DNA of 64,000 nucleotides from Xanthomonas sacchari (GTDB lineage Bacteria; Pseudomonadota; Gammaproteobacteria; Xanthomonadales; Xanthomonadaceae). Under the pieces are notes generated by a model that did no database searches, had not been told where the DNA came from, and saw nothing but the letters and a program-made list of their open reading frames with translations. Positions 43,997-62,058 of this stretch are shown one piece after another. The stretch spans positions 3,019,001-3,083,000 of the forward strand of contig NZ_CP100647.1 of assembly GCF_024266585.1 (NCBI RefSeq), written 5' to 3'. The translations under genes were made by a program, and so were the position numbers. Positions within the stretch are counted from its first letter, which is position 1. Every line of letters starts with the position of its first letter.

Positions 43997-44704
43997 ATGC
44001 GCATTCTGGTCGCCGAAGACGATACGTCCATTGCCGTTGCGTTGCGCGACTCGCTCGCCGAGTGCGGCCACGTGGTGGATCATGTCAGCGATGGCGCCGC
44101 CGCCGAACGCGCGCTCGGTAGCGAAAGCTATCAATTGCTGGTCCTCGATCTGGGCCTGCCGCGTCGCGACGGGTTGCAGGTGCTGCAACGCCTGCGCGCG
44201 CGCCGCGACGAGATCCCGGTCCTGGTGGTGACCGCGCGCGACGCGGTGGAAGACCGCATCCACGCGCTCGACCAGGGCGCCGACGACTACCTGATCAAGC
44301 CCTTCGAACTGTCCGAGTTCCTCGCCCGCACCCGCGCGCTCCTGCGCCGCAGCAGCAGCGGCGGCGTGCCGGAACTGGTGCTGGGCCAGTTGCGCATCAA
44401 CCTGGCCGGGCGCCGGGTGTGGCTGCAGGACCAGCCGCTGGACCTGACCGCGCGCGAGTTCGCCCTGCTGGAAACCCTCCTGCTGCGCAGCGGGCGCGTG
44501 GTCAGCCGCAGCCAGCTGACCGAGGCGCTGTGCGACTGGCAACACGAAATCACCGACAACGGCCTGGACATCTCCATGCACCGCCTGCGGCGCAAGCTGC
44601 ATGGCGCCGGCGTCGGCATCCGCACCATCCGCGGCCTGGGCTATCTGCTGGAGGAGTCGCGCGCCGCCTCACCGGCCGCCGACCACGCACAGATCCCGCA
44701 GTGA
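43997..44704 (+). CDS. OmpR/PhoB-family response regulator
   Basis: A 235-aa two-component regulator (QseB/PmrA-like). The receiver domain (about 1-115) opens with MRILVAEDD; the phospho-acceptor is Asp51 in LVLDLGLPRRDG and the conserved Lys is in YLIKPFE. The winged helix DNA-binding domain (about 130-225) includes LTAREFALLETLLLRSGRVVSR and the VDISMHRLRRKL-type helix. ATG 43997 begins the conserved N-terminus; the frame is open further upstream. Its stop overlaps the histidine kinase start (GTGA). It likely controls the exporter genes that follow. Confidence 0.95.
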   Translation: MRILVAEDDTSIAVALRDSLAECGHVVDHVSDGAAAERALGSESYQLLVLDLGLPRRDGLQVLQRLRARRDEIPVLVVTARDAVEDRIHALDQGADDYLIKPFELSEFLARTRALLRRSSSGGVPELVLGQLRINLAGRRVWLQDQPLDLTAREFALLETLLLRSGRVVSRSQLTEALCDWQHEITDNGLDISMHRLRRKLHGAGVGIRTIRGLGYLLEESRAASPAADHAQIPQ

Positions 44705-46122: not shown

Positions 46123-47537
46123 GCCGCCTACGCCCCCGCCCGGCCGCGCTGCTGGCGCTGGCCGCCGCGCTCGCGCTGGGCGGCTGCGCCAGCCAGCGCA
46201 TCCCCGACCTGCGCCAGCCGTCGCTGCCCGCACAGTGGAGCAGCGCGACGCCGCAGGCGGCCGTGCCGCGCCCGCCGGGCAGCGCCTGGTGGCAGGATTT
46301 CCACGATCCGCAGCTCGACGCGCTGGTCGCGCAGGCGCTGCGGGACGATCTCGAGGTCGGCCAGGCGCTGGCGCGGCTGCGCGCGGCGCGGCGGCTGGAC
46401 GCGGTCGCCGACGCGACACTTCGGCCGCAGCTACGCGCGCGCACCGAGGACCCGATCGACCCGGACGCCAGCGCCTCGTTCCTGGTCGTGGGCGTCGATT
46501 CGGAATGGGAACTGCCGCTGTTCGGCCGCGGCGAAGCCACCAACCGCATGGCCCGCGGCGACCTGCAGAGCGCCCAGGCCAACCTGGCGCAGGTGCGCGC
46601 GGCGACGATCTCCGACGTGGCGCACAACTGGATCGACCTGCGCCACGCGCAGCAGGCCGAACGCCTGCTGCAGGACATCGCCAGCGCGCGCCAGCGCCAG
46701 GCCAGCCTGCAGCAGACCCTGGTCGACCTGCATCTGGCCACGCCGGCCAGCGCCGCGCAGGCGCAGGCCGCGGCGCTGCAGGCGCAGAGCGCGGTGAACG
46801 AACCGCGCGACGCCGCCGCCGCGGCCGCGCGGCGCCTGGCGGTGCTGCTGGGCCGCGACACGCCCGACCCGGCATGGAGTACGGCCGCGGCCACCACCGC
46901 GCCGGGGCAACTGCAGATCGCCGCGGTCGACAGCGTGCCGGCCGACCTGCTGCGGCGGCGCCCGGACATCGCCGCGCACGAGGCCGAGGTGATCAGCGCC
47001 GCCGGCGCCCTGGGCATCGCCCGCGCCGACCGCTACGGCAGCATCGGCCTGGGCGGCGCGATCCGCTGGTCGACCAGCCTGCTGACCCATCGCCGCACCG
47101 CCACCCACGGCATCGCCTCGTTCGGCCCGGTGATCGACATCCCGCTGTTCGACTGGGGCATCCGCCAGGCCAAGGCCAAGGCACGCGGCGACCTGCTGGA
47201 AGCGGCGACCCTGGCCTACCGGCAGACCGTGCTGGCGGCGGTCAACGAGGTCGAGGACGCCTTGACCGCGCTCGAACAGCAGCGGCGCAACGTCGAGACG
47301 CAGCAGCAGGTGCTGCAGGCACAGCAGCAGGCCAGCGACGTCGCGCAACAGCGCCGGCAGTTGGGCCTGGGCAGCGACCTGGAGGTTGCCACGCAGCAGG
47401 CCGCGCGCGACCAGGCCGACCTGGAACTGCTGGACGCGCAGCGCCAGCGCGACCTGGCCTACGTCGCCCTGCACACCGCACTGGGCAGCGCCACCGCGCC
47501 GATCCCGGGTAGCGAGCGCGAAGGCGCGCAGCCCTGA
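46119..47537 (+). CDS. Outer-membrane efflux lipoprotein (TolC/NodT type)
   Basis: A 472-aa outer-membrane factor that would form the exit duct of a tripartite exporter. Lipobox ALALGGC puts the lipid at Cys23. The body has two long coiled-coil repeats, as in NodT/OprM (VNEPRDAAAAAARRLAVLLGR in the first half and VNEVEDALTALEQQRRNVETQ in the second). The RRPDIAAHEAEVISAAGALGIARA motif of the family is present. It is coupled to the kinase (ATGA) and to the permease (TGATG), an unusual fusion of sensing and export genes in one mRNA. Confidence 0.93.
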   Translation: MSRLRPRPAALLALAAALALGGCASQRIPDLRQPSLPAQWSSATPQAAVPRPPGSAWWQDFHDPQLDALVAQALRDDLEVGQALARLRAARRLDAVADATLRPQLRARTEDPIDPDASASFLVVGVDSEWELPLFGRGEATNRMARGDLQSAQANLAQVRAATISDVAHNWIDLRHAQQAERLLQDIASARQRQASLQQTLVDLHLATPASAAQAQAAALQAQSAVNEPRDAAAAAARRLAVLLGRDTPDPAWSTAAATTAPGQLQIAAVDSVPADLLRRRPDIAAHEAEVISAAGALGIARADRYGSIGLGGAIRWSTSLLTHRRTATHGIASFGPVIDIPLFDWGIRQAKAKARGDLLEAATLAYRQTVLAAVNEVEDALTALEQQRRNVETQQQVLQAQQQASDVAQQRRQLGLGSDLEVATQQAARDQADLELLDAQRQRDLAYVALHTALGSATAPIPGSEREGAQP

Positions 47538-48670
47538 TGGTCGCGCTGGCCCGCCAGACCCTGCGCTACGAGTGGCGCCGCTTCCTGCCGGTGGTGGTGT
47601 CGGTGGGCTTCGCCAGCCTGTTGCTGCTGCTGCAGACCGCGCTGGTGCTGGGCATCTTCGGCAGCGCCAGCGTCTACGTCTCCGGCTCCGATGCCGACCT
47701 GTGGCTGGGCTATCCCGGCACGCAGAGCGTGGACCAGGGCCGCGCCATCGACCCGGACGCGGCCGCGCCGCTGTACCTGGACCCGCGGGTGGCGCAGATC
47801 GAACCGTTCATCTGGTTCGACGGCGACTGGCGCGGCCCCGGCGACACCGGTGCCGTCTCGGTCTACATCTCCGGCATCGACACCCGCGACGGCGGGCTGA
47901 TGTTCTCGCGCCTGCTCAGCCCGGCCCTGCGCGCGGCGCTGCGCGAGCCGGACACCGTGGTGGTGGACCGCGCGGAACTGGACAAGCTGGGCGTCGCCGT
48001 CGGCAGCAGCGCGCGCATCAACGGCCACCGCGTGCGGGTGATCGGGGTCGGCCGCGGCCTGCGCGCGCTGGGCGGGGTCAACGTGCTGGCCTCGCTGGAC
48101 ACCGCGCGCGCGCTCAACAGCGACACCGCGCATCCGGACTGGCCGACCTACATGGTGGCCAAGCTGCGCCCCGGCGCCGACCCGCAGGCGGTGGCGCAGG
48201 CGATCGACAGCGCGGTCACGCGGCCGCGCGTGGAAGCCTGGAGCGCCGACGATTTCGCCCGGCGCAGCATCCTGTTCTGGATGTTCGACACCGGCGCCGG
48301 CTCCGGCGTGCTGTTCCTGGGCGGCATCGTGCTGCTGGTCGGCGTGGCCATCACCAGCCAGACCCTGCTGGGCACCGTGCTCGGCGCCGCGCGCGAGTAC
48401 GCCACGCTCAACGCGCTGGGCGTGAGCATGCGCAACCTGCGCTGGGTGGTGCTGGAACAGGCGGCCTGGGTCGGCGCGCTGGGCCTGATCGGCGCCAGCG
48501 CGCTGGGCGCGGCGCTGGTCGCGCTGGCCCGCGCGCACGACGTGCCGGTGGCGTTCAACGCCGGCGGCTGGGGGCTGTGCGTGTGCGCGGTGATGCTGCT
48601 GACCGTGGTCTCGGCCCTGGCCGCGCTGCGCGGGCTGCGCCGCGCCGATCCGGCGTTGCTGCTGCGATGA
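47537..48670 (+). CDS. ABC transporter permease, FtsX-like (DevC/MacB type)
   Basis: A 377-aa permease. The N-terminal membrane helix (about 15-40, VVVSVGFASLLLLLQTALVLG) is followed by a large periplasmic domain (about 45-250, with SGSDADLWLGYPG) and three C-terminal helices (about 255-375, ending with the FtsX region VAITSQTLLGTVLGAAREYATLNALG). This is the topology of MacB-like and DevC-like exporters. The SADLWL-type motif after helix 1 resembles DevC of glycolipid export systems (inference). The start shares one base with the OMF stop, and it overlaps the ATPase by four bases. Confidence 0.9.
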   Translation: MVALARQTLRYEWRRFLPVVVSVGFASLLLLLQTALVLGIFGSASVYVSGSDADLWLGYPGTQSVDQGRAIDPDAAAPLYLDPRVAQIEPFIWFDGDWRGPGDTGAVSVYISGIDTRDGGLMFSRLLSPALRAALREPDTVVVDRAELDKLGVAVGSSARINGHRVRVIGVGRGLRALGGVNVLASLDTARALNSDTAHPDWPTYMVAKLRPGADPQAVAQAIDSAVTRPRVEAWSADDFARRSILFWMFDTGAGSGVLFLGGIVLLVGVAITSQTLLGTVLGAAREYATLNALGVSMRNLRWVVLEQAAWVGALGLIGASALGAALVALARAHDVPVAFNAGGWGLCVCAVMLLTVVSALAALRGLRRADPALLLR

Positions 48671-49431
48671 GCCGCATCGTCGCCTCCGCCGCGCTGCACC
48701 CGGCCGCCGCCACCCTCAGCGGCAGCGGGCTGTGCAAGAGCTTCGTCTCCGGCAGCCTGCGCACGCCGGTGCTGCGCGACGTGGAACTGCAGGTGTGGCC
48801 GGGCGAACTGACCCTGATCTCCGGCCCGTCCGGCTGCGGCAAGAGCACCCTGCTGTCGATCCTCAGCGGCCTGCAGCGCGCCGATGCCGGCCAGGTGCTG
48901 GCGCTGGGCGAGGAACTGGGCGCGCTCGGCGCCAGCGCGCTGGAACAGTTCCGCCTGCGCCACACCGGCTTCATCTTCCAGGGCTTCAATCTCTTTCCGG
49001 CGCTGTGCGCGCTGGACCAGGTGCGGCTGCCGCTGCAGTACATGGGCCTGGCGCCCGCCGAGGTGCGCAGCCGCGCCGAGGAAGCGCTGGCCGAGGTCGG
49101 CATCGCCCACCGCCAGCACCTGCGCCCGGCCGAACTGTCCGGCGGCGAGAAGCAGCGCGTGGCGATCGCCCGCGCGCTGGCCAAGCACCCGGCGCTGCTG
49201 TTCGCCGACGAACCGACCAGCGCGCTGGACGCCGGCAACGGCCAGATCGTGATCGACCTGCTGCACCGCATCGCACGCCGCCACAACACCATGGTGCTGT
49301 GCGTGAGCCACGACCCGCGCCTGATCCGCCACGCCGACCGCGTGCTGTCGATGGAGGACGGCCGCATCCTCGACGACCGCCGCGTGAACGCGCCGCCCTC
49401 GCCCCTGCCCTCACGGAATCCCGACCCATGA
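48667..49431 (+). CDS. ABC transporter ATP-binding protein (MacB/DevA type)
   Basis: A 254-aa ATPase. Walker A is SGPSGCGKST, followed by the Q-loop (GFIFQGFNLFPALCALDQV), the signature LSGGEKQRVAIARAL, and Walker B with LLFADEPTSALDAGNG and the switch His in VSHDPR. The N-terminal extension of about 20 residues precedes the first strand. It overlaps the permease by four bases and the adaptor by four bases, so it powers the same exporter. It belongs to the family of LolD/MacB/DevA ATPases whose permeases do not channel substrate through the membrane. Confidence 0.95.
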   Translation: MSRIVASAALHPAAATLSGSGLCKSFVSGSLRTPVLRDVELQVWPGELTLISGPSGCGKSTLLSILSGLQRADAGQVLALGEELGALGASALEQFRLRHTGFIFQGFNLFPALCALDQVRLPLQYMGLAPAEVRSRAEEALAEVGIAHRQHLRPAELSGGEKQRVAIARALAKHPALLFADEPTSALDAGNGQIVIDLLHRIARRHNTMVLCVSHDPRLIRHADRVLSMEDGRILDDRRVNAPPSPLPSRNPDP

Positions 49432-50330
49432 AAGCGTTCGCCGCCGCGCCCCTGCTGAGCCTGCTGCTGGCCGCATGCGCGCCCTCGGACCGCACGCCGG
49501 CCGCCGCGCCGGCTGCCGCCCCCGCCGCCTATTTGGCAGTGGCGCGCGGCCGCATCGACGTGGAAGGCGGCGTGCTCAAGCTCGGCCTGCCGGTCGCCGC
49601 GACCCTGCGCGAGGTGCCGGTGCACGAAGGCGACGCAGTGCAAAAAGGCGCCCTGCTGGTCGCCGGCGACGACCGCGCCGCCGCGGTCGAGCTGGACATC
49701 GCCCGCACCCGCGCGCAGGCCGCGGCCACCCACCTGAAGCAACTGCAGCAGCGCCTGCAAAGCGCCCAGCAGAAGCAACGGCGGCTGGCCGAGGCCGCAC
49801 GCCTGGGCGCCGGCGACGGCCAGAGCGCCGACGACGCCAGCGACGCGGTGCAGAGCGTGGTCGACGCCCTGGACACCGCGCGCAGCGACGCGGCCCTGGC
49901 AGACGCACAGGTGCGCGCGGCCGAGCTGCAGCGCGCGCAGTACCGGCTGCAGGCGCCGGTGGCCGGCCGCGTGCTGCAGCTGTCGGCCGCGGTCGGCGCG
50001 CGCAGCGACGCCAACGCGCCGCTGCTGACCCTGCTGCCGGATGCGCCGCGCCTGGTCCGCGCCGAATTGAACGAAAGCTATGCCGGCAGCGTCACCCCGG
50101 GCATGGCCGCGGAGGTGATCAGCGACGACGGCCGCCAGACCGTGCTCGGCGAGGCGGTGGTGCGCTGGCTGGCGCCGGCCTACGGTCCCACCCAGTTGCA
50201 CGACGACGCCACGCCCGCCGGCAACGACCGCAGCGTGGCCTGCGTGCTGGCCTTCACCCAGCCCTCGACCCTGCGCCTGGGCCAGCGCGTGCTGGTACGC
50301 TTCCGCAACCCGGCCGCGGCCAAGCGCTGA
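49428..50330 (+). CDS. Membrane fusion (adaptor) lipoprotein, HlyD/DevB type
   Basis: A 300-aa periplasmic adaptor. Lipobox LLLAAC puts the lipid at Cys17. The barrel-lipoyl segments are at about 45-75 (VEGGVLKLGLPVAATLREVPVHEGDAVQKGA, given by its key positions) and 170-200 (RLQAPVAGRVLQLSAAVGARS). Between them lies an alpha hairpin (about 85-165, with LKQLQQRLQSAQQKQRR). The C-terminal beta-barrel holds VTPGMAAEVISDDG. It completes the exporter: OMF, permease, ATPase, adaptor. A 93-base gap follows before the hydrolase. Confidence 0.9.
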   Translation: MKAFAAAPLLSLLLAACAPSDRTPAAAPAAAPAAYLAVARGRIDVEGGVLKLGLPVAATLREVPVHEGDAVQKGALLVAGDDRAAAVELDIARTRAQAAATHLKQLQQRLQSAQQKQRRLAEAARLGAGDGQSADDASDAVQSVVDALDTARSDAALADAQVRAAELQRAQYRLQAPVAGRVLQLSAAVGARSDANAPLLTLLPDAPRLVRAELNESYAGSVTPGMAAEVISDDGRQTVLGEAVVRWLAPAYGPTQLHDDATPAGNDRSVACVLAFTQPSTLRLGQRVLVRFRNPAAAKR

Positions 50331-50423: not shown

Positions 50424-51251
50424 ATGATCCAATCTGCCGAGTTCCACTTCGAGGGCGGCCGCAACGGCGTGCTGCTGATCCATGGCCTGACCGGCACGCC
50501 CAGCGAGATGCGCCTGCTCGGCAAGAGCCTGAACCGCGAAGGCTTCAGCGTCTACGGCGTGCAACTGGCCGGCCACTGCGGCGACGAGGACGACCTGCTG
50601 GCCACCGGCTGGCGCGACTGGTACGCCAGCGTCGAGGCCGCCGCGGCCCGGATCCGGCCCCAGGTCGACCGGCTGTTCGTGGCCGGGCTGTCGATGGGCG
50701 CACTGCTGGCGCTGCGCCTGGCGCAGGAGCGTCCGCAGTGGGTGGACGGGGTCGGCGTGCTCGGCGCCACCTTCCGCTACGACGGCTGGAACATCCCCAA
50801 GCGCGCGCGGCTGGCGTTCCTGCTGCCCTGGTTCAAGCGCCTGGGCATCGGCAAGCGCCGCATGTTCCTGGAAGAGCCGCCGTACGGCCTGCGCGACGAG
50901 CGCATCCGCGCCCAGGTCAGCAGCGCCATGCTCGGCGGCGACAGCAGCGCCGCCGGCCTGCCCGGCAACCCCTGGCATGCTCTGGCCGAGATGTACCTGC
51001 TCTCGCGCGACGTGCGCCGCAACCTGCCCAAGGTGGTCGCGCCGTGCCTGGTCGCGCACGCGACCGAGGACGACATCGCCGACCTGCGCAACGCGCGGCT
51101 GGTGATCGCCAACGTCTCCGGGCCGACCGAACTGCTGCTGCTGCACGACAGCTACCACATGATCACCCTGGACCGCGAACGGCGCGTGCTCGGCGCGCGC
51201 CTGGCGCGGTTCTTCGCCGCCCTGTCCGCGCCGCAGCAGGCCGCCGCCTGA
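50424..51251 (+). CDS. Alpha/beta hydrolase (carboxylesterase/thioesterase-like)
   Basis: A 275-aa serine hydrolase with the fold of Est30-type carboxylesterases and monoacylglycerol lipases. The oxyanion motif is LLIHGLTGTPSEM, the nucleophile lies in AGLSMGALLAL (G-x-S-x-G), the acid in HATEDDIAD and the His in HDSYHMITLD. The N-terminus is soluble (no signal peptide), so it is cytoplasmic. Its stop shares one base with the next membrane-protein gene. In this setting it could release or remodel an acyl chain, but esterase activity on another substrate is equally possible. Confidence 0.85.
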   Translation: MIQSAEFHFEGGRNGVLLIHGLTGTPSEMRLLGKSLNREGFSVYGVQLAGHCGDEDDLLATGWRDWYASVEAAAARIRPQVDRLFVAGLSMGALLALRLAQERPQWVDGVGVLGATFRYDGWNIPKRARLAFLLPWFKRLGIGKRRMFLEEPPYGLRDERIRAQVSSAMLGGDSSAAGLPGNPWHALAEMYLLSRDVRRNLPKVVAPCLVAHATEDDIADLRNARLVIANVSGPTELLLLHDSYHMITLDRERRVLGARLARFFAALSAPQQAAA

Positions 51252-51613
51252 TGGCGATGACCGGCCCGGTGGTGGCGATCTGGCTGGCGACGGTGGCGCT
51301 GGACACCGCCGGCCAACTCGCCTTCAAGTACGTCGCCAGCCACCCGCAGGGCAGCGGCATGGCACGCTGGCGGAACATGGCCGCGCAGCCGCAGCTGTGG
51401 CTGGGCGTGGGCTGCTACGTGTTCGAGTTCCTGGCCTGGACCGCGTTCCTGTCGCTGGTGCCGCTGGGCCGCGGCGTGCTGCTGGGCTCGATCAACATCG
51501 TGGCGATCATGCTGGCCGGGCGCTGGCTGTTCGGCGAACGCCTCGGGCGCATGCAGGTGGCCGGCATCTGCCTGGTCAGCGCCGGCGTGGCGGTGGTGGG
51601 GTTGGGCTCGTGA
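51251..51613 (+). CDS. Small four-helix membrane protein (DMT/ArnE-like)
   Basis: A 120-aa integral membrane protein with four predicted helices, the size and pattern of SMR/ArnE-type proteins of the drug-metabolite transporter superfamily. Key segments are AIWLATVALDTAGQLAFKYVAS at the N-terminus (with the buried Asp and Gln of this family), PLGRGVLLGSINIVAIMLAGRWLFGERL, and a final helix. These proteins usually work as hetero- or homodimers, and a partner gene overlaps directly downstream. A flippase role for a lipid-linked substrate is inferred from ArnE/ArnF. Confidence 0.8.
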   Translation: MAMTGPVVAIWLATVALDTAGQLAFKYVASHPQGSGMARWRNMAAQPQLWLGVGCYVFEFLAWTAFLSLVPLGRGVLLGSINIVAIMLAGRWLFGERLGRMQVAGICLVSAGVAVVGLGS

Positions 51614-52008
51614 GCCGGCCGCCGCTGCATCGCTACGCGGTGGGTTTCGCCCTACTGCTGAGCTTCGACACCCTGGCCCAGATCGGCTTCAAGCTGGCCG
51701 GCACCCATGCGTTCCCGCCGCAGGCCGAACTGGCCTGGGTGCTGCGCCTGTTGGGCAGCCCATGGCTGTACGCCGCGCTGCTGGGCTACGTCGGCGCGTT
51801 CTTCACCTGGATGAAGCTGCTCGAGCACGCGCCGATCGGCCCGGCCTTCGCCGCCTCGCACCTGGAAGTGGTCAGCGTGATGCTGCTGTCGGCCTGGTGG
51901 TTCAACGAACACATCGGCCTGCTGCAGGCGCTGGGCGCGGCGTTGATCGTCGGCGGCATCGTCTGCCTGGCGATCGGCGAACGCGCGGACCCTGCCGATG
52001 CGCATTGA
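51610..52008 (+). CDS. Small four-helix membrane protein (DMT/ArnF-like partner)
   Basis: A 132-aa four-helix membrane protein and probable dimer partner of the preceding one. GTG 51610 overlaps its stop (GTGA). Sequence landmarks are FALLLSFDTLAQIGFKLAGTHAF at the N-terminus, LEHAPIGPAFAASHLEVVSVMLLSAWWF and a C-terminal GAALIVGGIVCLAIGER. Both proteins share the D-T-x-x-Q-x-x-F-K motif in helix 1. It overlaps the aminotransferase gene by 11 bases. The pairing strongly suggests a heterodimeric exporter or flippase. Confidence 0.8.
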   Translation: MSRPPLHRYAVGFALLLSFDTLAQIGFKLAGTHAFPPQAELAWVLRLLGSPWLYAALLGYVGAFFTWMKLLEHAPIGPAFAASHLEVVSVMLLSAWWFNEHIGLLQALGAALIVGGIVCLAIGERADPADAH

Positions 52009-53251
52009 GATCCCGCCGACCGCCGGCCTGCCGCTGCAGTGGCGCGACCTGTGGCCAGGCCGCCCGCGCACGCGCCTGGCCAGCGCGCTCGGCCTGCCGC
52101 AGGCGCTGCTGACCTGCTCGGGCACCGCCGCGCTGATCGTGGCCCTGCGCACCCTGGCCGCGGCCAGCCGACGCCGGCAGGTGCTGGTCTCGGCCTACAC
52201 CTGCCCGCTGGTGGCGCTGGCGGTGGCGCACTGCGGCCTGCAACTGGTGCTGTGCGATCTGCTGCCCGGCTCGCTGGACCTGGACCCGGCGCAGCTGGCG
52301 CAACGCTGCGGCAGCGACACCCTGGCGATCATCGCCACCCATCTGGGCGGACGCCTGACCGACCTGGCGCCGCTGCGCCGCGCCGCCGAGGGCTGCGGCG
52401 CGCTGCTGATCGAGGACGCGGCGCAGGCGCTGGGCGGCGTGCACGCCGACGGCCGCCCGGCCGGCCTGGGCGGAGATATCGGCTTCTGCAGCCTGGCCGC
52501 CGGCAAGGGCCTGACCCTCTACGAAGGCGGGCTGTTGATGTCGCGGCATGCGCCGCTGCAGCGCGACCTCGCCGACACCGCCGCGCGCCTGGGCCAGCGC
52601 GACTGGCGCTGGGAGTTGCGGCGCAGCCTCGAACTGCTCGGCTACGCCGCGCTGTACCGGCCGCAGCCGTTGCGCTGGGCCTACGGCCTGCCGGTGCGCC
52701 GCGCGCTGCGCCGCGGCGACCGCGTGGGCGCGGCCGGCGACCGCTTCGGCACCGCCATCGCCCAGCATGCCGTCGGCGCCTGGCGCGAAGGCGTAGGCGT
52801 GCGCGCCAGCGCGCGCTGGCCGGCGTTCCTGGCGCAGATCCGCGAACAGGGCCGGCGCCGCAGCGCGCGCCTGGCCGGCATCCCCGGCCTGAGCGTGATC
52901 GCCGACTCCCCCGGCGCCCAGGGCAGCTGGCCGATCCTGATGGTGCTGCTGCCCAATGCGGCCGCACGCGAAGCGGTGTTGGCCGCACTATGGCCGCGCG
53001 GGCTGGGCGTGGCGGTGCCGTTCGTGCATGCCCTGCCCGACTACGACTACCTGGACGGCATCGTCGCGCGCACGCCGATGCCCAACGCCAGCGACTTCGC
53101 CGCGCGCTGCCTGAGCATCAGCAACAGCCCCTGGCTGGACGAGGCACGCTTCGAGAGCATCGTGGCCACCCTGCAGGCGGCCTGCGCCGGGACGGTCGGG
53201 CCGGCGCCGCTGGACCTAGACCTGGTGCACGCCGCTGCGCCGAGCGCCTGA
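51998..53251 (+). CDS. DegT/DnrJ/EryC1-family PLP aminotransferase
   Basis: A 417-aa PLP enzyme of the sugar-aminotransferase fold (family knowledge). The N-terminus has GTAALIVALRTLAAAS, the cofactor region LLIEDAAQALGGVHADG and the catalytic Lys in the SLAAGKGLTLYEGG block, where K replaces the typical position of the family. The late FCSLAAGK and the C-terminal PFVHALPDYDYLDG fit too. The start overlaps the membrane gene. Such enzymes usually aminate keto sugars, but the substrate here is not known. It ends the plus-strand run that began at the response regulator. Confidence 0.85.
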   Translation: MRIEIPPTAGLPLQWRDLWPGRPRTRLASALGLPQALLTCSGTAALIVALRTLAAASRRRQVLVSAYTCPLVALAVAHCGLQLVLCDLLPGSLDLDPAQLAQRCGSDTLAIIATHLGGRLTDLAPLRRAAEGCGALLIEDAAQALGGVHADGRPAGLGGDIGFCSLAAGKGLTLYEGGLLMSRHAPLQRDLADTAARLGQRDWRWELRRSLELLGYAALYRPQPLRWAYGLPVRRALRRGDRVGAAGDRFGTAIAQHAVGAWREGVGVRASARWPAFLAQIREQGRRRSARLAGIPGLSVIADSPGAQGSWPILMVLLPNAAAREAVLAALWPRGLGVAVPFVHALPDYDYLDGIVARTPMPNASDFAARCLSISNSPWLDEARFESIVATLQAACAGTVGPAPLDLDLVHAAAPSA

Positions 53252-53316
53252 CCCGCGACGGGGCGGCATTCGCCAGCACGCGCAACCGGTAACGACGGGA
53301 AGCGTCCTCTGTTGTA

Positions 53317-53376
53317 GGAGCGGCTTCAGCCGCGACAGACATGACCGGTAACGCCCGTCGCGGCTGAAGCCGCTCC
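53317..53376. repeat. REP-like inverted repeat (GGAGCGGCTTC class)
   Basis: Perfect 20-base arms (GGAGCGGCTTCAGCCGCGAC and its complement at 53357-53376) surround a 20-base spacer. It is the second copy of the class found at 14341-14398. It lies in the 322-base gap between the convergent DegT aminotransferase and arginase-fold genes; the remainder shows no gene. Confidence 0.9.
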
Positions 53377-53573
53377 CACGGCACGACCTGCGCTCTCGCT
53401 TGGTTGTCACAAAAGCAGCCCACCGGAGGTGTCCGGCAGTCCGCCTCCGCGATCCATGCGCCCCATCGAACGACCGTAGCGGCCATCGGCCGCAAGCGAA
53501 CCGCGCGAGGCTTGCATCCCGGCGCCTGTCGCTGCCACGACGCCCAGGAGGCACCGCCTTGGCACCGGTCGGG

Positions 53574-54452
53574 TTAGCCGACGCTGGCCGCGTCCAATGC
53601 CGCCAGCAACCGCAGGTTCAAGGCGTGCTGCTGCGCCTGCCACGCCGCCAGATCCGCCGGCGACGGCTCCGGCTGCGCGTCCAGCGCCGCCAGCTTGCGC
53701 TTCCACCACTGCGGGTAATGGGCAAGCGAGACCTCGCCGGTGATGTCGCTGCCGCACACCTGTCCGCGCAGCGCGTCGATCGCCTGCAGCAGCTGCGGCA
53801 CGCGCAGTTGGCCCTGGTCCCAGTTGGTGCGCACGTCCTGCGGATCCAGCACGTCCTTGTCCAGCGACAGGTAGGTCGGCATCGGCGTGCGTCGCAGGTG
53901 GTCGACGAAGGCGTCGCTCAGTTCGCTGACGCTGGCGAAGCCGCGTACCGCCCGGCCCAGGCCCAGCCGCCGCGCCCAGCCCACATCGACGCCGCTGCAC
54001 CAGTAGCGCAGCTTGCCGCGGTACAGCGGCAACAGATGGTTCTCCCAGGCATGGCCGGAGCCGACGTCGCCGGAGGTGATGCCGGCCACCTCGACCTGCG
54101 CCACCTGCGGCAGCGCGGCGATGCGCCGCACCCACGAACCGCAGTGCACCCCGAACGGGAAGCGCATGTTGTCCGGATGGTTGTCGAACACCACCACCCG
54201 CAGCGGCGCCTGCGCGCGCTGCGCCAGGCGCACGATCAGCGGCAGGCTCAAGTGGTGGAAATCGCCGCTGCCCAACAGCACCGTGCCGTACTGCGCCGGC
54301 AGCGCCTGGTCGAGCGCGGCGCCGAAGCGGCGCAGCCGCGCCATCGAACAGGCGAAGCGCAGGCCGTCGCACCAGTCGCGCAGCGGCAGGCGCACGGCGT
54401 CGGGCACCGCACCCAGCGACGCGTCGAGATCGAGCAGGACCGGCGTGCGCAT
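53574..54452 (-). CDS. Arginase/agmatinase-fold protein
   Basis: A 292-aa protein of the arginase (ureohydrolase) fold. All six expected metal ligands can be matched: His in GSGDFHHLS, Asp/His/Asp in VVFDNHPDN, and Asp/Asp in LSLDKDVLDP. The motifs differ from classical arginases (DNHPD instead of DAHxD), so the substrate may not be arginine or agmatine. A GSDITGEVS block follows near residue 245. ATG 54452 is one base past the stop of the acyltransferase-like gene on the same strand, so the two are coupled. It could act on a guanidino group, but this is not proven. Confidence 0.78.
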   Translation of the reverse strand: MRTPVLLDLDASLGAVPDAVRLPLRDWCDGLRFACSMARLRRFGAALDQALPAQYGTVLLGSGDFHHLSLPLIVRLAQRAQAPLRVVVFDNHPDNMRFPFGVHCGSWVRRIAALPQVAQVEVAGITSGDVGSGHAWENHLLPLYRGKLRYWCSGVDVGWARRLGLGRAVRGFASVSELSDAFVDHLRRTPMPTYLSLDKDVLDPQDVRTNWDQGQLRVPQLLQAIDALRGQVCGSDITGEVSLAHYPQWWKRKLAALDAQPEPSPADLAAWQAQQHALNLRLLAALDAASVG

Positions 54453-54453
54453 C

Positions 54454-55521
54454 TCAGTCCTCCTCGGCGGCATCGGCGGCCGGCCCGACGTCGTCGGATT
54501 CGAACAGCGGCCGCAGCCGCCGCAGCACGGCGCGCAGCAGCGGATTGCGCAGGTACACCGCATGCCAGGTGTAGGTGAAGCTGGCGCCGAGTTGCGCCTT
54601 CACTTCCGGATCGGTCCAGCCGGCGACATAGGCCGTCAGGCCATGGCGGCAGGCGTAGTCGAGGTTCTCGATCCAGCTCAGCGCGTACAGGTTGTGCTCG
54701 CGCGCATCCGGGTAGTGCAGGCCGATGTACTTGTCCAGCAGCCGGCCCTCATGCACGTAGCACAGGTTCCAGCCGATGATGCGGCCCTGGTGCCGGTACA
54801 CGAACACCTGCCCGCCCGAGTCGGCGTCGGTCAGCAGCGCATCGAAGAAGGGCGCGGTAAGCAGGTCGAAATGGATCTCGCTCTGCGCATACACCTCCTG
54901 GTACAGCGCATAGCAGTGCGCGCGCAGCGCCGGATCGGCGAAGGCCGGGCCGGTCGGCAGCACCTCGATCTCCAGCTCGGCGCGCGAGCGCAGCTTGCGG
55001 CGGATGTTGCGCCGGCGCCCGCGCGAGAGCCGCGCCAGGTACTCGTCGGTGGAGGCGAAGTCGATCGGCACCCAGGCCAGCGCCTGCCCGCGCAGCAGCA
55101 CGTAGCCAGTGCGCTCGCAGGCGTCCAGGAACGCCTGCGCCCAGGCGTTGTCGGTGGCATCGAGCAGCGGCGAGCGCTGCGGCACGTCCTTGACGATCAT
55201 CAGCGCCCGGCGCCGGCCCAGTTGCGCGCGCCACTGCCGCGGCAACTGCGCCGGATCGGCCGCGCGCGGCAGCCAGGCGTATTCGCTGACGGTGCTGCCG
55301 ACGAAGCTGGTGCGCGGCCGCAGCAGGCGCTGCCACAGGCGCTGCAGCGGCAGCCGCGCCACCCGCGCGCGCAGCGCCGGCTCGGCGGTGGTGAGCAGGT
55401 CGAAATCGGCCTCGAAGGCCGGCACCCCGTGCTCCAGGGGCTGGATCAGGAAGCCGGACGGTGGGTGCTGCAGGAACTGCCGCTGCAAGGCCTGCGGCTC
55501 GAGTTGGTTGACGAAAGGCAT
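54454..55521 (-). CDS. GNAT/FemAB-type (BioF2-like) acyltransferase
   Basis: A 355-aa protein of the FemAB/BioF2-like acyltransferase superfamily. The hallmark is LSRGRRRNIRRKLRSR near residue 195, followed by a second acetyltransferase-like half with GGQVFVYRHQGRIIGWNLCYV, a DKYIGLHYPDAREHN motif, and an acidic C-terminus (ESDDVGPAADAAEED). Members transfer acyl or amino-acyl groups to amines, but the substrates of this one are unknown. It starts at ATG 55521 and diverges from the ACP gene over 112 bases. It is coupled to the arginase-fold gene downstream. Confidence 0.82.
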   Translation of the reverse strand: MPFVNQLEPQALQRQFLQHPPSGFLIQPLEHGVPAFEADFDLLTTAEPALRARVARLPLQRLWQRLLRPRTSFVGSTVSEYAWLPRAADPAQLPRQWRAQLGRRRALMIVKDVPQRSPLLDATDNAWAQAFLDACERTGYVLLRGQALAWVPIDFASTDEYLARLSRGRRRNIRRKLRSRAELEIEVLPTGPAFADPALRAHCYALYQEVYAQSEIHFDLLTAPFFDALLTDADSGGQVFVYRHQGRIIGWNLCYVHEGRLLDKYIGLHYPDAREHNLYALSWIENLDYACRHGLTAYVAGWTDPEVKAQLGASFTYTWHAVYLRNPLLRAVLRRLRPLFESDDVGPAADAAEED

Positions 55522-55633
55522 CTGCAAGATTGATCGTCTAGCGTGGAGAATGGATGCTGCGGCCCAGGCCGCAGCGTGCGATCCACCGGCGGCGGGTGCC
55601 GCACGGTGGCCCTTCATTTCGCGGAGCACTGCC

Positions 55634-55909
55634 ATGACCCCGTCCATCGAGTCGCAAATCCACAGCATCGTCGCCAAGCATGGCGAGATCGACCCGGCGC
55701 GCCTGACCCCCGATGCCAAGCTGCAGGACCTGGGCGTGGATTCGCTCGAGGCCATCGAAATCCTGTTCGACATCGAAGAGCACTTCGACATCACCTTCCC
55801 GCAGCGCGACCCGAACCTGGACGACGGTTCGCTCGGCAAGCTGGTGCAGGCGGTCGAGGACGCCCTGGCGGCCAAGGCGGCGACCGGCGCGGCGCAACCG
55901 GCGCACTGA
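55634..55909 (+). CDS. Acyl carrier protein (dedicated)
   Basis: A 91-aa acyl carrier protein. The phosphopantetheine site is Ser in GVDSLEAIEIL (near residue 38), with the acidic helix around it (DIEEHFDITFPQRDPNLDD). The extension after the core (AAKAATGAAQPAH) is longer than in the fatty-acid-synthase ACP. ATG 55634 lies behind GCGGAG. A ketoacyl synthase gene follows after six bases, so the pair forms a mini acyl-assembly unit. No acyltransferase or ketoreductase lies nearby, so chains are probably supplied from primary fatty-acid metabolism. Confidence 0.93.
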   Translation: MTPSIESQIHSIVAKHGEIDPARLTPDAKLQDLGVDSLEAIEILFDIEEHFDITFPQRDPNLDDGSLGKLVQAVEDALAAKAATGAAQPAH

Positions 55910-55915
55910 CGCATC

Positions 55916-57151
55916 ATGGGCGCCTCTCCGCACGCGCGGCGCGTCGTCATCACCGGCATGGGCGCGGTCAGCGCGCTCGGCCTCGGCGCCGAGGCGCTGT
56001 GGAGCGCGATGCGCGCCGGCCGCAGCGGCATCGCCGCCCTGCCCTCGCCCGATCCGCTCAGCACCCTGAAGATGCGCGTGGCCGCGACCCTGCCCGGGTT
56101 CGCGCCCGACGCCACGCAGACCGGCGGCATCGCCCCCGGCCAGCTCGACCGCATGACCCAGATGGCCCTGGTCGCCGCCGGCGAGGCGGTCGCCCAGTCC
56201 GGCCTGCGCGTGGATGCCGCACTCGGCGCGCGCTGCGCGGTGGTGGTCGGCACCGGCGTCGGCGCCGAACTCAGCCGCGACGAGCAATCGCGCCGGCTGT
56301 ACCGCGACCAGGCCGAACGCCTGCATCCGCTGACCATCGTGCGCAGCATGGCCAACGCCCCGGCCAGCCAGATCAGCATCGCCTTCGGCCTGCGCGGCCC
56401 GGCCTTCGCCGTGTCCAGCGCCTGCGCCTCGGCCAACCACGCCCTCGCCCAGGCCGCGCTGATGGTCCGCCACGGCCTGGCCGACGTGGCCATCGCCGGC
56501 GGCAGCGAAGCCTGCCTGAGCCTGCCGCTGATCCGCGCCTGGGAAGCGATGCGGGTGGTCAGCGACGACACCTGCCGGCCGTTCTGCGCGCAGCGCAGCG
56601 GCCTGGTGCTGGGCGAAGGCGCCGGGATGTTCGTCCTGGAAACCGCCGAGCACGCGGCCGCCCGCGGCGCGCGGCCGCTGGCGGAACTGGCGGGGTTCGG
56701 CATGAGTTCCGATGCCGGCGACATCGTCGCGCCCAGCGTCGACGGCGCTGCCACGGCGATGCGTTTGGCCCTGCAGGATGCCGGCCTGGCCCCGGAACAG
56801 ATCGACTACATCAACGCCCACGGCACCGGCACGCAGGCCAACGACCGCTGCGAGACCCAGGCGCTGCGCCAGGTGTTCGGCGCGCACGCCCAGGCGCTGG
56901 CGGTCAGCTCGACCAAGGCGGTGCACGGCCACGCGCTCGGCGCGGCCGGCGCGCTGGAACTGGTGGCGGCGCTCGGCGCGCTGCGCGAGCAGTTGGTCCC
57001 GCCCACGGCCAACTTCCTCGATGCCGATCCGGAATGCGATCTGGACTACGTGCCCAATCAGGCGCGCGCCCGCAAGGTGCAGGCGGTGCTGAGCAATTCC
57101 TTCGCCTTCGGCGGACTCAATGCGGTGATCGCGCTGCGCGCGGCGGGCTGA
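55916..57151 (+). CDS. Beta-ketoacyl-ACP synthase (KAS II-like)
   Basis: A 411-aa condensing enzyme. Catalytic Cys lies in VSSACASANHAL (near residue 170), the first His in INAHGTGTQAND and the second in TKAVHGHALGAAG; all are present, so it should condense malonyl units rather than only decarboxylate. The GFGMSSDAGDIVAP and LSNSFAFGGLNA blocks are standard. It follows the ACP by six bases. This gene is distinct from a housekeeping fabF, which would normally sit with fabG/acpP. Its convergent partner is the class III aminotransferase. Confidence 0.92.
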   Translation: MGASPHARRVVITGMGAVSALGLGAEALWSAMRAGRSGIAALPSPDPLSTLKMRVAATLPGFAPDATQTGGIAPGQLDRMTQMALVAAGEAVAQSGLRVDAALGARCAVVVGTGVGAELSRDEQSRRLYRDQAERLHPLTIVRSMANAPASQISIAFGLRGPAFAVSSACASANHALAQAALMVRHGLADVAIAGGSEACLSLPLIRAWEAMRVVSDDTCRPFCAQRSGLVLGEGAGMFVLETAEHAAARGARPLAELAGFGMSSDAGDIVAPSVDGAATAMRLALQDAGLAPEQIDYINAHGTGTQANDRCETQALRQVFGAHAQALAVSSTKAVHGHALGAAGALELVAALGALREQLVPPTANFLDADPECDLDYVPNQARARKVQAVLSNSFAFGGLNAVIALRAAG

Positions 57152-57216
57152 CGCGCCCGCCGCCGCGGCGAACGGCGGGAGGCAACGCGAACCGCGCGCG
57201 TCGTCTCCCGCCCGGC

Positions 57217-58689
57217 TCATGCGACCTGCTTGGCGCGGGTCAGCAACTGGTCCAGCAAGGACAGGCCCAGGTCGATCTCTTCATGGCTGATGTGCAGCGA
57301 CGGCGCCAGGGTGATCACGTTCTTGTAGTAACCGCCCACGTCCAGGATCAGGCCGATGCGCTTGCCGTTGTGGCGCAACTCGCCTTCCAGGCCCATGTCG
57401 ACCATGGTGTCGAGCAGCTTGCGGTTCGGCGTGAAGCCGTCCGCCTGGCAGATTTCCGCGCGCAGGGCCAGGCCCAGGCCGTCGACGTCGCCGATTTCCG
57501 GATGGCGCTTCTGCAGATCGCGCAGGCCGTCCAGGAAGTGCGCGCCCTTGGCCATCACCATGGACTCGTAGTCGGTCTCGGCCAGCATGCGCATGGTCTC
57601 CAGGCCGACCGCGGTGCCCAGCGGATTGGAGGCGAAGGTGGAGTGGGTCGAACCCGGCGGGAACACGGTCGGGTTGATCAGTTCCTCGCGCGCCCAGATG
57701 CCGGCCAGCGGATTGAGGCCGTTGGTCAGCGCCTTGCCGAACACCAGCACGTCCGGGGTCACGCCGAAATGCTCGATCGCCCACAGCTTGCCGGTGCGGA
57801 AGAAGCCCATCTGGATTTCGTCGACCACCAGCAGGATGCCGTACTTGTCCAGCACCCGCTTCAGACCGGTGAAGAAGTTCGGCGGCGGGATCACGTAGCC
57901 GCCGGTGCCCTGGATCGGCTCGACGTAGAACGCCGCGTACTCGCACTGCCCGGCCTTGGGATCCCACACGCCGTTGTACTCGGTCTCGAACAGGCGCTCG
58001 AACTTGGCCACGCACTGCTCGCCGTACTCTTCCTTGGACATGCCCTTGGGGCCGCGGAAGTGGTACGGGAATTCGATGAACTGGGCGCGGTCGAAATGGC
58101 CGAAGCGTCGGCGGTAGCGGTACGACGAGGTGATCGCCGAGGCGCCGAGGGTGCGGCCGTGGTAGCCGCCTTCGAAGGCGAACACCAGGCTCTTGCCGGC
58201 GCTGGCGTTGCGCACCAGCTTCAGCGAGTCTTCCACCGACTGCGCGCCGCCGACGTTGAAGTGCACGCGGCCCTTGCGGCCCCACTTGCGCTCGGCGTCG
58301 ACCGCGATGGTCTTGGCCAGCTCGATCTTGGTCGGGTGCAGGTACTGGCTGGCGACCTGCGGCAGGGTCTCGATCTGGCGGGTCAGCGCCTGGTTCAGGC
58401 GCGGATTGGCGTAGCCGAAGTTGACCGCCGAGTACCACATCTGCAGGTCCAGGTACGGCACCTCTTCGGTGTCGTACAGGTAGCTGCCGTCGCAACGGCC
58501 GAAGATGCGCGGCGGCTCGCTGTAGTGCACGGTGTCGCCGTAGGAGCAGTACTGGGACTCGTCGGCCAGCATCTGCGCATCGCTCAGCGCGCGCTGGTGG
58601 TCGGCACCGGTGCGCAGCAGCGCCTCCGGATCGGGCGCGGCATCGCCATGCAGCGGTGCGAGCGAGGAAAGCGAAACATTCCGGTTCAT
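57217..58689 (-). CDS. Class III PLP aminotransferase
   Basis: A 490-aa aminotransferase (fold type I, class III). Key parts are NVGGAQSVEDSLKLVRNA, GGYHGRTLGASAITSSY, the cofactor Asp in LLVVDEIQMGFFRTG and the PLP-binding Lys in VFGKALTNGLNPLAG. GSTHSTFASNPLG completes the active site. The N-terminus is longer than in most members (about 60 residues before the first conserved strand). Related enzymes use ornithine, diaminobutyrate or beta-amino acids, and the substrate here is unknown. It starts at ATG 58689, six bases downstream of the HAD phosphatase stop on the same strand. Confidence 0.9.
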   Translation of the reverse strand: MNRNVSLSSLAPLHGDAAPDPEALLRTGADHQRALSDAQMLADESQYCSYGDTVHYSEPPRIFGRCDGSYLYDTEEVPYLDLQMWYSAVNFGYANPRLNQALTRQIETLPQVASQYLHPTKIELAKTIAVDAERKWGRKGRVHFNVGGAQSVEDSLKLVRNASAGKSLVFAFEGGYHGRTLGASAITSSYRYRRRFGHFDRAQFIEFPYHFRGPKGMSKEEYGEQCVAKFERLFETEYNGVWDPKAGQCEYAAFYVEPIQGTGGYVIPPPNFFTGLKRVLDKYGILLVVDEIQMGFFRTGKLWAIEHFGVTPDVLVFGKALTNGLNPLAGIWAREELINPTVFPPGSTHSTFASNPLGTAVGLETMRMLAETDYESMVMAKGAHFLDGLRDLQKRHPEIGDVDGLGLALRAEICQADGFTPNRKLLDTMVDMGLEGELRHNGKRIGLILDVGGYYKNVITLAPSLHISHEEIDLGLSLLDQLLTRAKQVA

Positions 58690-58694
58690 CGGGA

Positions 58695-59387
58695 TCAGGC
58701 TCGTTGGGTGACGGGAAGCGGGAAGGACACGGCGGCCGTGGCCGGCACGGCCAGGTCGGGCAGCAGGGCGATGGCGTCGTCGAAACCGGTGATCGCGCAA
58801 TGGGCGATCCCGTTGGCGCGGCAATGGCGCAGCAGACCGTCCTTGGCGAACACCAGGTCGGCCTTGCCGGCCAGGCAGAAATCGGAGCGGCCGTCGCCGA
58901 TCAGCAAGGTCGCGCGCTCGGGCGGCTGCTGCGCCATGACCGCGCACTTGCAGGTGCCGCTGGGGCAGTCCGGCCGCGCATGCGGCGAGGCCATGCGCCA
59001 CTGCCCGGCGTCGGTGCGCAGCAGGCGGTTGGCGATGATCGGCAGATGGTGCAGGCCGTGGCGGGCCAGGATCCGGGCGATGCCGTAGTCCAGGCCGTCG
59101 CTGACGATGCTCAGCGGGATGCCCAGGCGCTCGGCCTGCGCCACGAAGCGCACGAAGGCCGGATCGATCCGCACCGCATCCAGCACCCGGTGCAGCGCAT
59201 CGACGTCGCCGTCGAGCAGCGCGACCTGCTTGCTCATGCACTCGCGGGCGCCGATCCGACCGGCGACCCAGTCGTCCTCCAGCGCCTGCCAACCGGGGCG
59301 CCCGAGGTGCTCGAGCAGGCTGTCGGTCACGTCCTGCAGGGACACGGTACCGTCAAAATCGCAAAGAATGTTCCATTGGGCGCGCAA
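58695..59387 (-). CDS. HAD-IB-type phosphatase (MtnX/SerB-like)
   Basis: A 230-aa HAD phosphatase, MtnX-like. Nucleophile motif I is ILCDFDGTVSLQDV, motif II has IVSDGLDYG, and motif IV is IGDGRSDFCLAGKAD. A Cys-rich DCPSGTCKCAV insertion lies in the cap region. I chose the TTG at 59387 because it follows a GGAGAG site and starts 11 residues before motif I; no in-frame ATG fits closely, and the frame from 59507 would add about 40 low-complexity residues. It is transcribed just upstream of the aminotransferase, so both probably act on one phosphorylated intermediate. Confidence 0.85.
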   Translation of the reverse strand: MRAQWNILCDFDGTVSLQDVTDSLLEHLGRPGWQALEDDWVAGRIGARECMSKQVALLDGDVDALHRVLDAVRIDPAFVRFVAQAERLGIPLSIVSDGLDYGIARILARHGLHHLPIIANRLLRTDAGQWRMASPHARPDCPSGTCKCAVMAQQPPERATLLIGDGRSDFCLAGKADLVFAKDGLLRHCRANGIAHCAITGFDDAIALLPDLAVPATAAVSFPLPVTQRA

Positions 59388-61971: not shown

Positions 61972-62058
61972 TGGTGCCCGGAGCCGGAATCGAACCGGCA
62001 TGGGGTCGCCCCCGGCGGATTTTAAGTCCGATGCGTCTACCAGTTTCGCCATCCGGGC
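61972..62058 (-). tRNA. tRNA-Leu (UAA anticodon)
   Basis: An 87-nt tRNA with encoded CCA end. The acceptor arms GCCCGGA and TCCGGGC pair. The D-loop has the GGTAGACGC region and the anticodon loop reads ACTTAAAATCC with TAA as anticodon. A long variable arm of leucine type and the GGTTCGATTCC T-loop complete it. Structure and length agree with tRNA-Leu. It reads leucine UUA/UUG codons. Confidence 0.97.

Follow-up and report, generated by a model that had tools for sequence, protein, structure and literature searches.

A co-inherited gene island of Xanthomonas sacchari with a possible role in making and exporting an amine-bearing lipid

We analysed a 64,000-nucleotide stretch of the 4.89-Mb Xanthomonas sacchari genome (contig NZ_CP100647.1, positions 3,019,001-3,083,000), hereafter the window, which carries an island of enzyme, membrane-protein and export genes that recurs as a set in other genomes. 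Positions given below are those of the window. An earlier note on this DNA had placed ten genes between 50424 and 59387; all ten reading frames lie where it put them, intact and without internal stops, and Pfam assigns each the family it had named. The first four are on the forward strand: abh, an alpha/beta hydrolase of the Hydrolase_4 family (50424-51251; Pfam 1.5e-21) with the motif GLSMG conserved at a level of at least 95% in 65 sequences; two small EamA-type membrane proteins, SMR1 (51251-51613) and SMR2 (51610-52008), both above the Pfam EamA cut-off and each the strict partner of the other; and DegT, a DegT/DnrJ/EryC1-type pyridoxal phosphate (PLP) aminotransferase that forms an optional module (51998-53251; Pfam DegT 1.1e-36). 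Two reverse-strand genes one base apart follow, encoding the arginase-fold hydrolase ARG (53574-54452; Pfam Arginase 6.7e-9, with its metal ligands; AlphaFold model confidence, pLDDT, 90.2) and the FemAB-like/GNAT transferase FEM (54454-55521; Pfam FemAB_like 1.3e-13 and Acetyltransf_6 1.7e-11; pLDDT 90.1). A second optional module, on the forward strand, consists of an acyl carrier protein (ACP, 55634-55909; Pfam PP-binding 1e-10) and a FabF-like ketoacyl synthase (KAS, 55916-57151; NCBIfam NF005589, 416.6 bits, above the cut-off of 387). The last pair, again on the reverse strand, is AT3, a class III PLP-dependent enzyme (57217-58689; Pfam Aminotran_3 1.8e-76), and HAD, an MtnX-like HAD-IB phosphatase with a TTG start (58695-59387; NCBIfam TIGR01489, 98.5 bits, above the cut-off of 81.55), whose CDFDGT motif is conserved at a level of at least 95% in 89 sequences.

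The island is larger than the earlier note had drawn it: a two-component system and a tripartite ATP-binding cassette (ABC) exporter (43,997-50,330) also belong to it. These six genes share the forward strand and begin with a response regulator of the OmpR/PmrA/TctD type (43997-44704; Pfam Response_reg and Trans_reg_C; NCBIfam TctD 228.6 and PmrA 224.6 bits, both below cut-off), annotated in X. sacchari R1, and a sensor histidine kinase of uncertain start codon (44698-46122; Pfam 2CSK_N, HisKA and HATPase_c on 44752-46122; NCBIfam QseC/PmrB below cut-off). The exporter comprises a TolC/NodT-type outer membrane channel (46119-47537; Pfam OEP; TIGR01845 outer_NodT 225.2 bits, above cut-off), an FtsX/MacB-type permease (47537-48670; Pfam FtsX and MacB_PCD), an ABC ATPase with DevA and LolD as its nearest models (48667-49431; Pfam ABC_tran) and an HlyD-type periplasmic adaptor (49428-50330; Pfam HlyD_3 on 49461-50330; annotated HlyD in X. 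sacchari R1). For the ATPase, DevA is the best-scoring model (TIGR02982, 219.4 bits against a cut-off of 295.8), and LolD likewise falls below its cut-off. X. sacchari R1 carries the same island in the same order, with fructose phosphotransferase genes adjoining as in the window (AT3 99.6% and ARG 97% identical); its gene table is incomplete, the FtsX permease being absent from the annotation. Across the genus, AT3 is present in 19 of 20 genomes.

To describe the locus in relatives, we considered 120 loci, of which 91 remained once AT3 near-copies (at least 97% identical) and loci lacking a usable AT3 row had been removed; the 70 that span at least 19 kb are called the long loci. Because all long loci but one (L220) were found through AT3, AT3's own count among them (69) is meaningless, and genes beyond about 10 kb are missed. 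HAD is found in 65 of the 70, abh in 55, FEM and ARG in 52 each, and SMR1 and SMR2 in 48 each. Less frequent are DegT (36), ACP (34), KAS (33), FtsX (32), the outer membrane channel (26), the response regulator (23) and the histidine kinase (22), followed by MipA (9), cyclopropane (CFA) synthase (6) and a desaturase (5). The pairings are tight. FEM and ARG occur together in 51 long loci and each alone in one; the SMR genes occur together in 48 and never singly; KAS and ACP occur together in 33, with ACP alone once and KAS never alone; HAD and AT3 occur together in 64, with HAD alone in one and AT3 alone in five. DegT stands with SMR1 in 35 loci and without it in one, and SMR1 stands without DegT in 13. 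KAS and CFA synthase never share a long locus (33 with KAS only, six with CFA synthase only), and KAS and the desaturase do so once (32 with KAS only, four with the desaturase only); in some relatives a desaturase or cyclopropane synthase stands in place of KAS. HAD-AT3 and FEM-ARG, together with abh and the SMR pair, make up the core that recurs, and KAS/ACP and DegT are optional. Mechanical clustering of reading frames from the window and 100 other loci gives a permease family present in 48 of the 101 loci, a kinase family present in 36 and an outer membrane channel family present in 34, so that the sensor and exporter families lie beside the cluster in part of the relatives only.

The earlier note had suggested looking for co-occurrence of these genes elsewhere, and we see it in the family, in the phylum and on plasmids. 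Among 198 genomes of the family, AT3 (query E <= 1e-60) is found in 25 and FEM (profile E <= 1e-25) in 24, all of them among the 25. The two genes start within 6 kb of each other in 20 of these 24 genomes; a distance of about 104 kb separates them in one (G025), and in three (G068, G095 and G142) they lie on different contigs. Because they remain together in these four genomes despite their distance, the link between FEM and AT3 is not merely one of shared position. The single genome with AT3 and no FEM (G002) keeps KAS, ACP, SMR and abh and lacks FEM and ARG at E <= 1e-15.

Among 398 genomes of the phylum (AT3 E <= 1e-100, ARG E <= 1e-20, FEM E <= 1e-25, strong FEM E <= 1e-60), AT3 is found in 26 and ARG in 16, all within the AT3 set. 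FEM is found in 24, comprising 16 strong matches, which are exactly the 16 genomes with ARG, and eight weak ones (1e-31 to 1e-43). The eight weak-FEM genomes lack ARG, and seven of them have AT3, the exception being G362; we treat these matches as probable, more distant FemAB_like proteins. On the assumption of independent genomes, which ignores relatedness, hypergeometric probabilities are 5e-30 for FEM with AT3 in the family, 5e-33 for FEM in the phylum with weak matches included and 4e-22 for ARG in the phylum.

The gene set is co-inherited and no chance neighbourhood. HAD-AT3, FEM-ARG, SMR1-SMR2 and KAS-ACP go together, and the sensor and tripartite exporter are part of the system in this lineage. 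The notion that these are unrelated neighbours, or a piece of a housekeeping fatty-acid or aryl-polyene cluster, could draw on the four strand runs in the window; it is hardly credible, given that alpha-, beta- and gammaproteobacteria all have members with the set, that it forms one operon on plasmids, and that the other KAS genes found in the genome lie elsewhere. Its chance-neighbour form is ruled out by the co-inheritance counts. The strand switches that the earlier note saw near 53.5, 55.5 and 57.2 kb are real, as are the runs they delimit; the four runs are a single operon elsewhere, and the unit extends to the upstream exporter and sensor pair. The note's inclusion of the SMR pair and an exporter as parts of the system stands, both belonging to the co-inherited unit.

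On plasmids the genes form one-strand operons. On Agrobacterium fabrum pAt2788a and Rhizobium acidisoli pRapFH23a, one strand carries response regulator, histidine kinase, HAD, AT3, arginase, EamA, desaturase, abh, GNAT, EamA and CFA synthase in that order, followed on the opposite strand by MipA/OmpV. Sinorhizobium sp. B11 has the same operon minus the CFA synthase. A 74-kb plasmid of Agrobacterium salinitolerans carries HAD-AT3-arginase-EamA-abh-GNAT-EamA-TolC-FtsX-ABC-adaptor, with a two-component pair upstream on the other strand and an IS66-type gene downstream; without KAS, ACP, DegT or desaturase, it is the shortest form of core and exporter that we saw. As annotated, none of the Agrobacterium, Rhizobium and Sinorhizobium plasmid operons holds KAS/ACP or DegT. 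Genes for EptA and diacylglycerol kinase follow the cluster on pAt2788a, one of seven annotated stretches opened. Plasmids of Bartonella also carry AT3, and the one opened reads AT3-GNAT-ARG.

In Roseomonas mucosa the position of AT3 is held by another class III enzyme (L220, 7484-8827), which is 24% identical and HemL-like by NCBIfam, with 401 bits on GntE, below the cut-off of 525. Identity to the window's proteins is 48-64% for its neighbours DegT, SMR1, SMR2, HAD and abh, and lower for ARG (36%) and FEM (32% over 120 residues). This points to an apparent swap of one class III enzyme for another in what would be the same role. A quick tree of AT3 places the Bartonella and Tokpelaia rows with Wohlfahrtiimonas and Frischella (L082, L093, L091 and L080), away from Agrobacterium and Rhizobium, with a support of 89, below the mark of 95. 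The group mixes alpha- and gammaproteobacteria, which suggests horizontal transfer, and several of its genera dwell in insects; the two together suggest gene transfer in animal hosts. One distant AT3 row (L202, 55% identical), which sits on a very long branch and lacks a nearby HAD match, may represent a paralogue.

Two of the earlier note's emphases shift for the system at large. It had put KAS and ACP at the centre; KAS is missing from 37 and ACP from 36 of the 70 long loci, and neither occurs in the annotated plasmid operons. It had named DegT as one of two PLP aminotransferases; a core role for DegT is not supported, since it is in only 36 of the 70. What survives of its interpretation is a single co-inherited system, into which lipid-type enzymes and membrane transport fit. 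The KAS itself carries C170, H302, K334 and H339, which we equate with the FabF active site. Three other KAS genes lie elsewhere in the genome; from sequence and neighbours we take them to be FabF (41% identical to the window KAS), FabB (37%) and a xanthomonadin-type enzyme (38%). With the presumed FabF and FabB as separate genes elsewhere, the window KAS is no housekeeping enzyme, and, as far as tested, it and ACP are not of an aryl-polyene cluster either, the presumed xanthomonadin KAS being separate too. In relatives the window-type KAS sits with AT3 and, mostly, with FEM. The presumed xanthomonadin-type KAS stretch occurs near both ends of the 4.89-Mb contig (4,334-4,924 and 4,885,637-4,886,227; L005 and L004); because score and flanking frames are the same, it looks like an uncut overlap of the circular assembly, not a true duplication.

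DegT and the SMR pair also invite comparison with the Arn pathway, through an amino sugar added to lipid A or to a surface polymer, in which DegT would act as ArnB and SMR1/SMR2 as an ArnE/ArnF flippase of a carrier-linked sugar. The best NCBIfam models of DegT are indeed sugar aminotransferases, all below cut-off; DegT is accompanied by the SMR pair in 35 of the 36 long loci that have it; and UppP adjoins the Roseomonas cluster, as EptA does one Agrobacterium cluster. The island, however, has no glycosyltransferase and the annotated operons of the plasmid stretches show none, DegT is missing from 34 of the 70 long loci and from the Agrobacterium, Rhizobium and Sinorhizobium operons, and ACP, KAS, desaturase and CFA synthase go unexplained. 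We regard an Arn-like role as unlikely.

AT3 has a lysine aligned with that of its solved relatives, the nearest of which are by name 4-aminobutyrate aminotransferase and alanine/serine racemase. All 114 aligned rows (Roseomonas excluded) carry a threonine at T460 where the two aligned solved relatives have an arginine (IR..PP), and this replacement suggests an unusual substrate. Serinol is one candidate product: AT3 would aminate dihydroxyacetone phosphate and HAD dephosphorylate the result, which fits the phosphatase-transaminase pair. ARG matches Pfam Arginase in 23 of 23 rows, all of which show the binuclear metal ligand pattern of ureohydrolases (GD.H, D.H.D, D.D). D64, H66, H67, D90, H92, D94, H103, D198 and D200 are invariant in all 23, as is the histidine that we take to be the arginase proton shuttle. 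The position next to the D.H.D motif, which we equate with the arginine-binding asparagine of arginase, is methionine in 20 rows and valine in three. Searched against solved structures, the ARG profile matches arginases and agmatinases as well as related amidinohydrolases, with E values from 7e-6 to 0.02.

These relationships would allow a side branch of arginine and ornithine metabolism, in which ARG and AT3 act on free small molecules and convert an arginine-type compound to an ornithine-type one and on to a semialdehyde. The ureohydrolase metal site and the nearest solved relatives of AT3 speak for it. The Met/Val at the presumed arginine-binding site in all 23 ARG rows and the invariant AT3 threonine in place of arginine speak against it, and it leaves the transport and acyl genes unexplained; we think it quite improbable.

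Taken as a whole, the island is best read, tentatively and with a little less than even confidence, as one regulated, horizontally moving system that makes and exports an amine-bearing lipid. What favours a lipid product is the desaturase or cyclopropane synthase gene within the operon of some relatives, by which chain tailoring varies by lineage between KAS-ACP and these enzymes, together with the strict SMR pair, the DevA/LolD-like ATPase and the envelope genes beside one plasmid copy. The amine is suggested by two PLP enzymes and a hydrolase of amine-releasing type. Product and order of reactions would then run as follows. From a phosphorylated keto precursor, HAD and AT3 would produce the amino compound that forms the backbone or head group, to which FEM would join an acyl (or aminoacyl) group. 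ARG, its metal site intact, would hydrolyse a guanidine, amidine or amide of the conjugate to release an amine, and abh would trim an ester. The chain would be tailored by KAS-ACP in the window and by the desaturase or cyclopropane synthase in some relatives. The SMR pair could then flip the lipid across the inner membrane, and the DevA/MacB-type exporter carry it through or into the outer membrane, with the sensor pair probably inducing the system under some envelope stress.

Several observations weigh against this proposal. Five long loci have AT3 without a nearby HAD, and FtsX of the window type is in only 32 of the 70. SMR1 and SMR2 reach 21-29 bits on the ArnE and ArnF models, short of the cut-offs of 92 and 99, and the sensor pair does not reach the NCBIfam cut-offs for PmrA/PmrB. 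Each half of the gene set can also occur without the other, a pattern that a single linear pathway leaves unexplained. We searched 25 genomes whole, mostly picked because no FEM or ARG had been seen near AT3 and some of them incomplete bins; the same 13 hold both FEM (E <= 1e-80) and ARG, and 12 have AT3 and no ARG (E <= 1e-15). Ten of these 12 also lack FEM (E <= 1e-15), and the other two have a weak FEM. In Dyella sp. OK004, KAS-ACP, FEM-ARG and DegT-SMR2-SMR1-abh lie apart from the exporter, HAD-AT3 and the two-component system.

One genome (G452), of the genus that the AT3 tree places with Pseudomonas, has two FEM genes and one ARG match, with FEM and ARG together on contig 22 (locus L250) and the other FEM near AT3 on contig 52. 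A secreted-looking protein of no assigned family lies within several kb of the second half's FEM or KAS in three loci (L162, 5067-5921; L163, 13593-14525; L166, 11239-12045), and may be a chance neighbour.

The main rival to an envelope lipid is a secreted natural product, such as an amphiphilic antibiotic, metal carrier or signal, for whose release the sensor and exporter would serve. Patchy distribution and plasmid carriage fit this, as does a dedicated TolC/ABC/adaptor exporter, since MacB-type pumps can carry secondary metabolites. Seven long loci, moreover, show only HAD-AT3 and the exporter ATPase among the genes tested, and three Dyella genomes of this kind (G199, G200 and G202) lack FEM and ARG at E <= 1e-15. 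On the other side, the strict SMR pair is distantly like the ArnE/ArnF lipid flippases (below cut-off), lipids are the substrates of the partner enzymes desaturase and CFA synthase, and neither the island nor the operons of the plasmid stretches contain a peptide synthetase or TonB receptor. A secreted product strikes us as possible, if doubtful.

All 24 FEM members match FemAB_like, and seven weakly match PF04377, the C-terminal part of arginyl-tRNA-protein transferase (ATE/Bpt; best E 0.0025); PF09924 and PF13444 give no match in the 24, with filters that drop most matches above E 0.1, and the genome has genes of both families elsewhere, apart from FEM. FemAB itself (PF02388) matches below cut-off (E 0.0089) in one of three scanned Agrobacterium, Roseomonas and Sinorhizobium FEM proteins, and a sequence comparison of FEM with solved structures found nothing meaningful (best E 0.38). 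We then compared profiles, using frames taken from stop to stop and leaving out three of 25 ATE rows (>360 aa) and ten of 25 PF13444 rows (>450 aa), with MprF cut to its last 330 residues. All FEM rows together align with ATE/Bpt at P 8.2e-5 over 129 columns, and the 21 Xanthomonas-type rows at P 9.5e-5 over about 130-140 columns. The eight rows of the Pseudomonas/Agrobacterium type give P 0.17, though this type goes with ARG, and five FemAB_like proteins from genomes without ARG give P 0.089. FEM gives P 0.022 against the C-terminal part of MprF, a set of 12 near-identical rows from one genus, P 0.57 against the PF13444 set (15 of 25 rows; the >450-aa rows, compared apart, P 0.25) and P 0.14-0.21 against three unrelated profiles. 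The 22 ATE rows used (of 25) belong to the window's order, an origin that may favour their match to FEM, and the MprF rows belong to its genus, so that the contrast between ATE and MprF is weak.

This likeness suggests a bolder and rather unlikely version of the aminolipid proposal. A tRNA-dependent FEM would place arginine on the amino lipid made by HAD-AT3, ARG would remove urea to leave an ornithyl lipid, SMR would flip it, and the exporter would deliver the doubly charged lipid to the outer membrane. It is favoured by the near-obligate pairing of FEM and ARG, by the ATE-like FEM of the Xanthomonas type and by the loss of the presumed contact to free arginine in ARG. The Pseudomonas/Agrobacterium-type FEM, which goes with ARG yet shows no ATE likeness, counts against it; because neither that type nor the FemAB_like proteins of ARG-less genomes share the likeness, we keep it as a bold case only. 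If true, ornithine-bearing lipids could be reached in this way without any ornithine-specific enzyme.

We compared the gene combination with six systems of lipid, sugar or polyene synthesis and export, and it fits none of them. Like the Arn system, the island has a DegT-type aminotransferase, a small EamA/SMR-type pair and a two-component system nearby; unlike it, the island has no ArnC/ArnT-type glycosyltransferase among its 16 proteins (by Pfam) or in the plasmid operons (whose annotation is incomplete), its DegT is optional among relatives, and its SMR proteins stay below the ArnE/ArnF cut-offs. With the DevBCA-TolC glycolipid exporter and MacAB-TolC it has in common an adaptor, an ABC ATPase, an FtsX permease and a TolC-type channel, although the ATPase falls short of the DevA family score. 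Ornithine-lipid synthesis by OlsB/OlsA and the aminoacyl lipids of MprF give the kind of product proposed here, an amino-acid-bearing lipid. FEM, however, has no likeness to OlsB (PF13444: P 0.57 and no match in 24 members) and little to MprF (no PF09924 match in 24 members; P 0.022 with a poor 12-row set). It is ATE/Bpt (PF04377) with which the Xanthomonas-type FEM aligns (P about 9e-5), whereas FEM's own Pfam families are FemAB_like and Acetyltransf_6. Aryl polyene and xanthomonadin clusters share an ACP and a FabF-like KAS with the island, which by Pfam has no chain-length factor, ligase or dehydratase. In contrast to sphingolipid synthesis, there is no serine palmitoyltransferase among the island genes, to which that search was confined; their two PLP enzymes are of the class III and DegT kinds.

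A search limited to one open-access library and the terms used found no description of such a cluster. The chemistry may yet turn out to be a variant of a known aminolipid. A system of more than ten genes with its own sensor and exporter, present in alpha-, beta- and gammaproteobacteria and on plasmids, likely matters for envelope building or defence, and its product, if a lipid, could belong to a lipid class that is new and has a compact gene cassette for study. The short A. salinitolerans plasmid operon makes the question of the product testable.

A PADLOC scan of the ten proteins for defence systems gave no match. Between 43,500 and 60,000, promoter-like sites number one against 0.5 expected and terminator-like sites three against 5.3 expected, and no reading rests on them. 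An RNA scan of 42,000-62,500 has a tRNA at 61,975-62,058 as its sole match. Between DegT and ARG, at 53300-53380, lie two inverted, nearly identical copies of about 23 bases.

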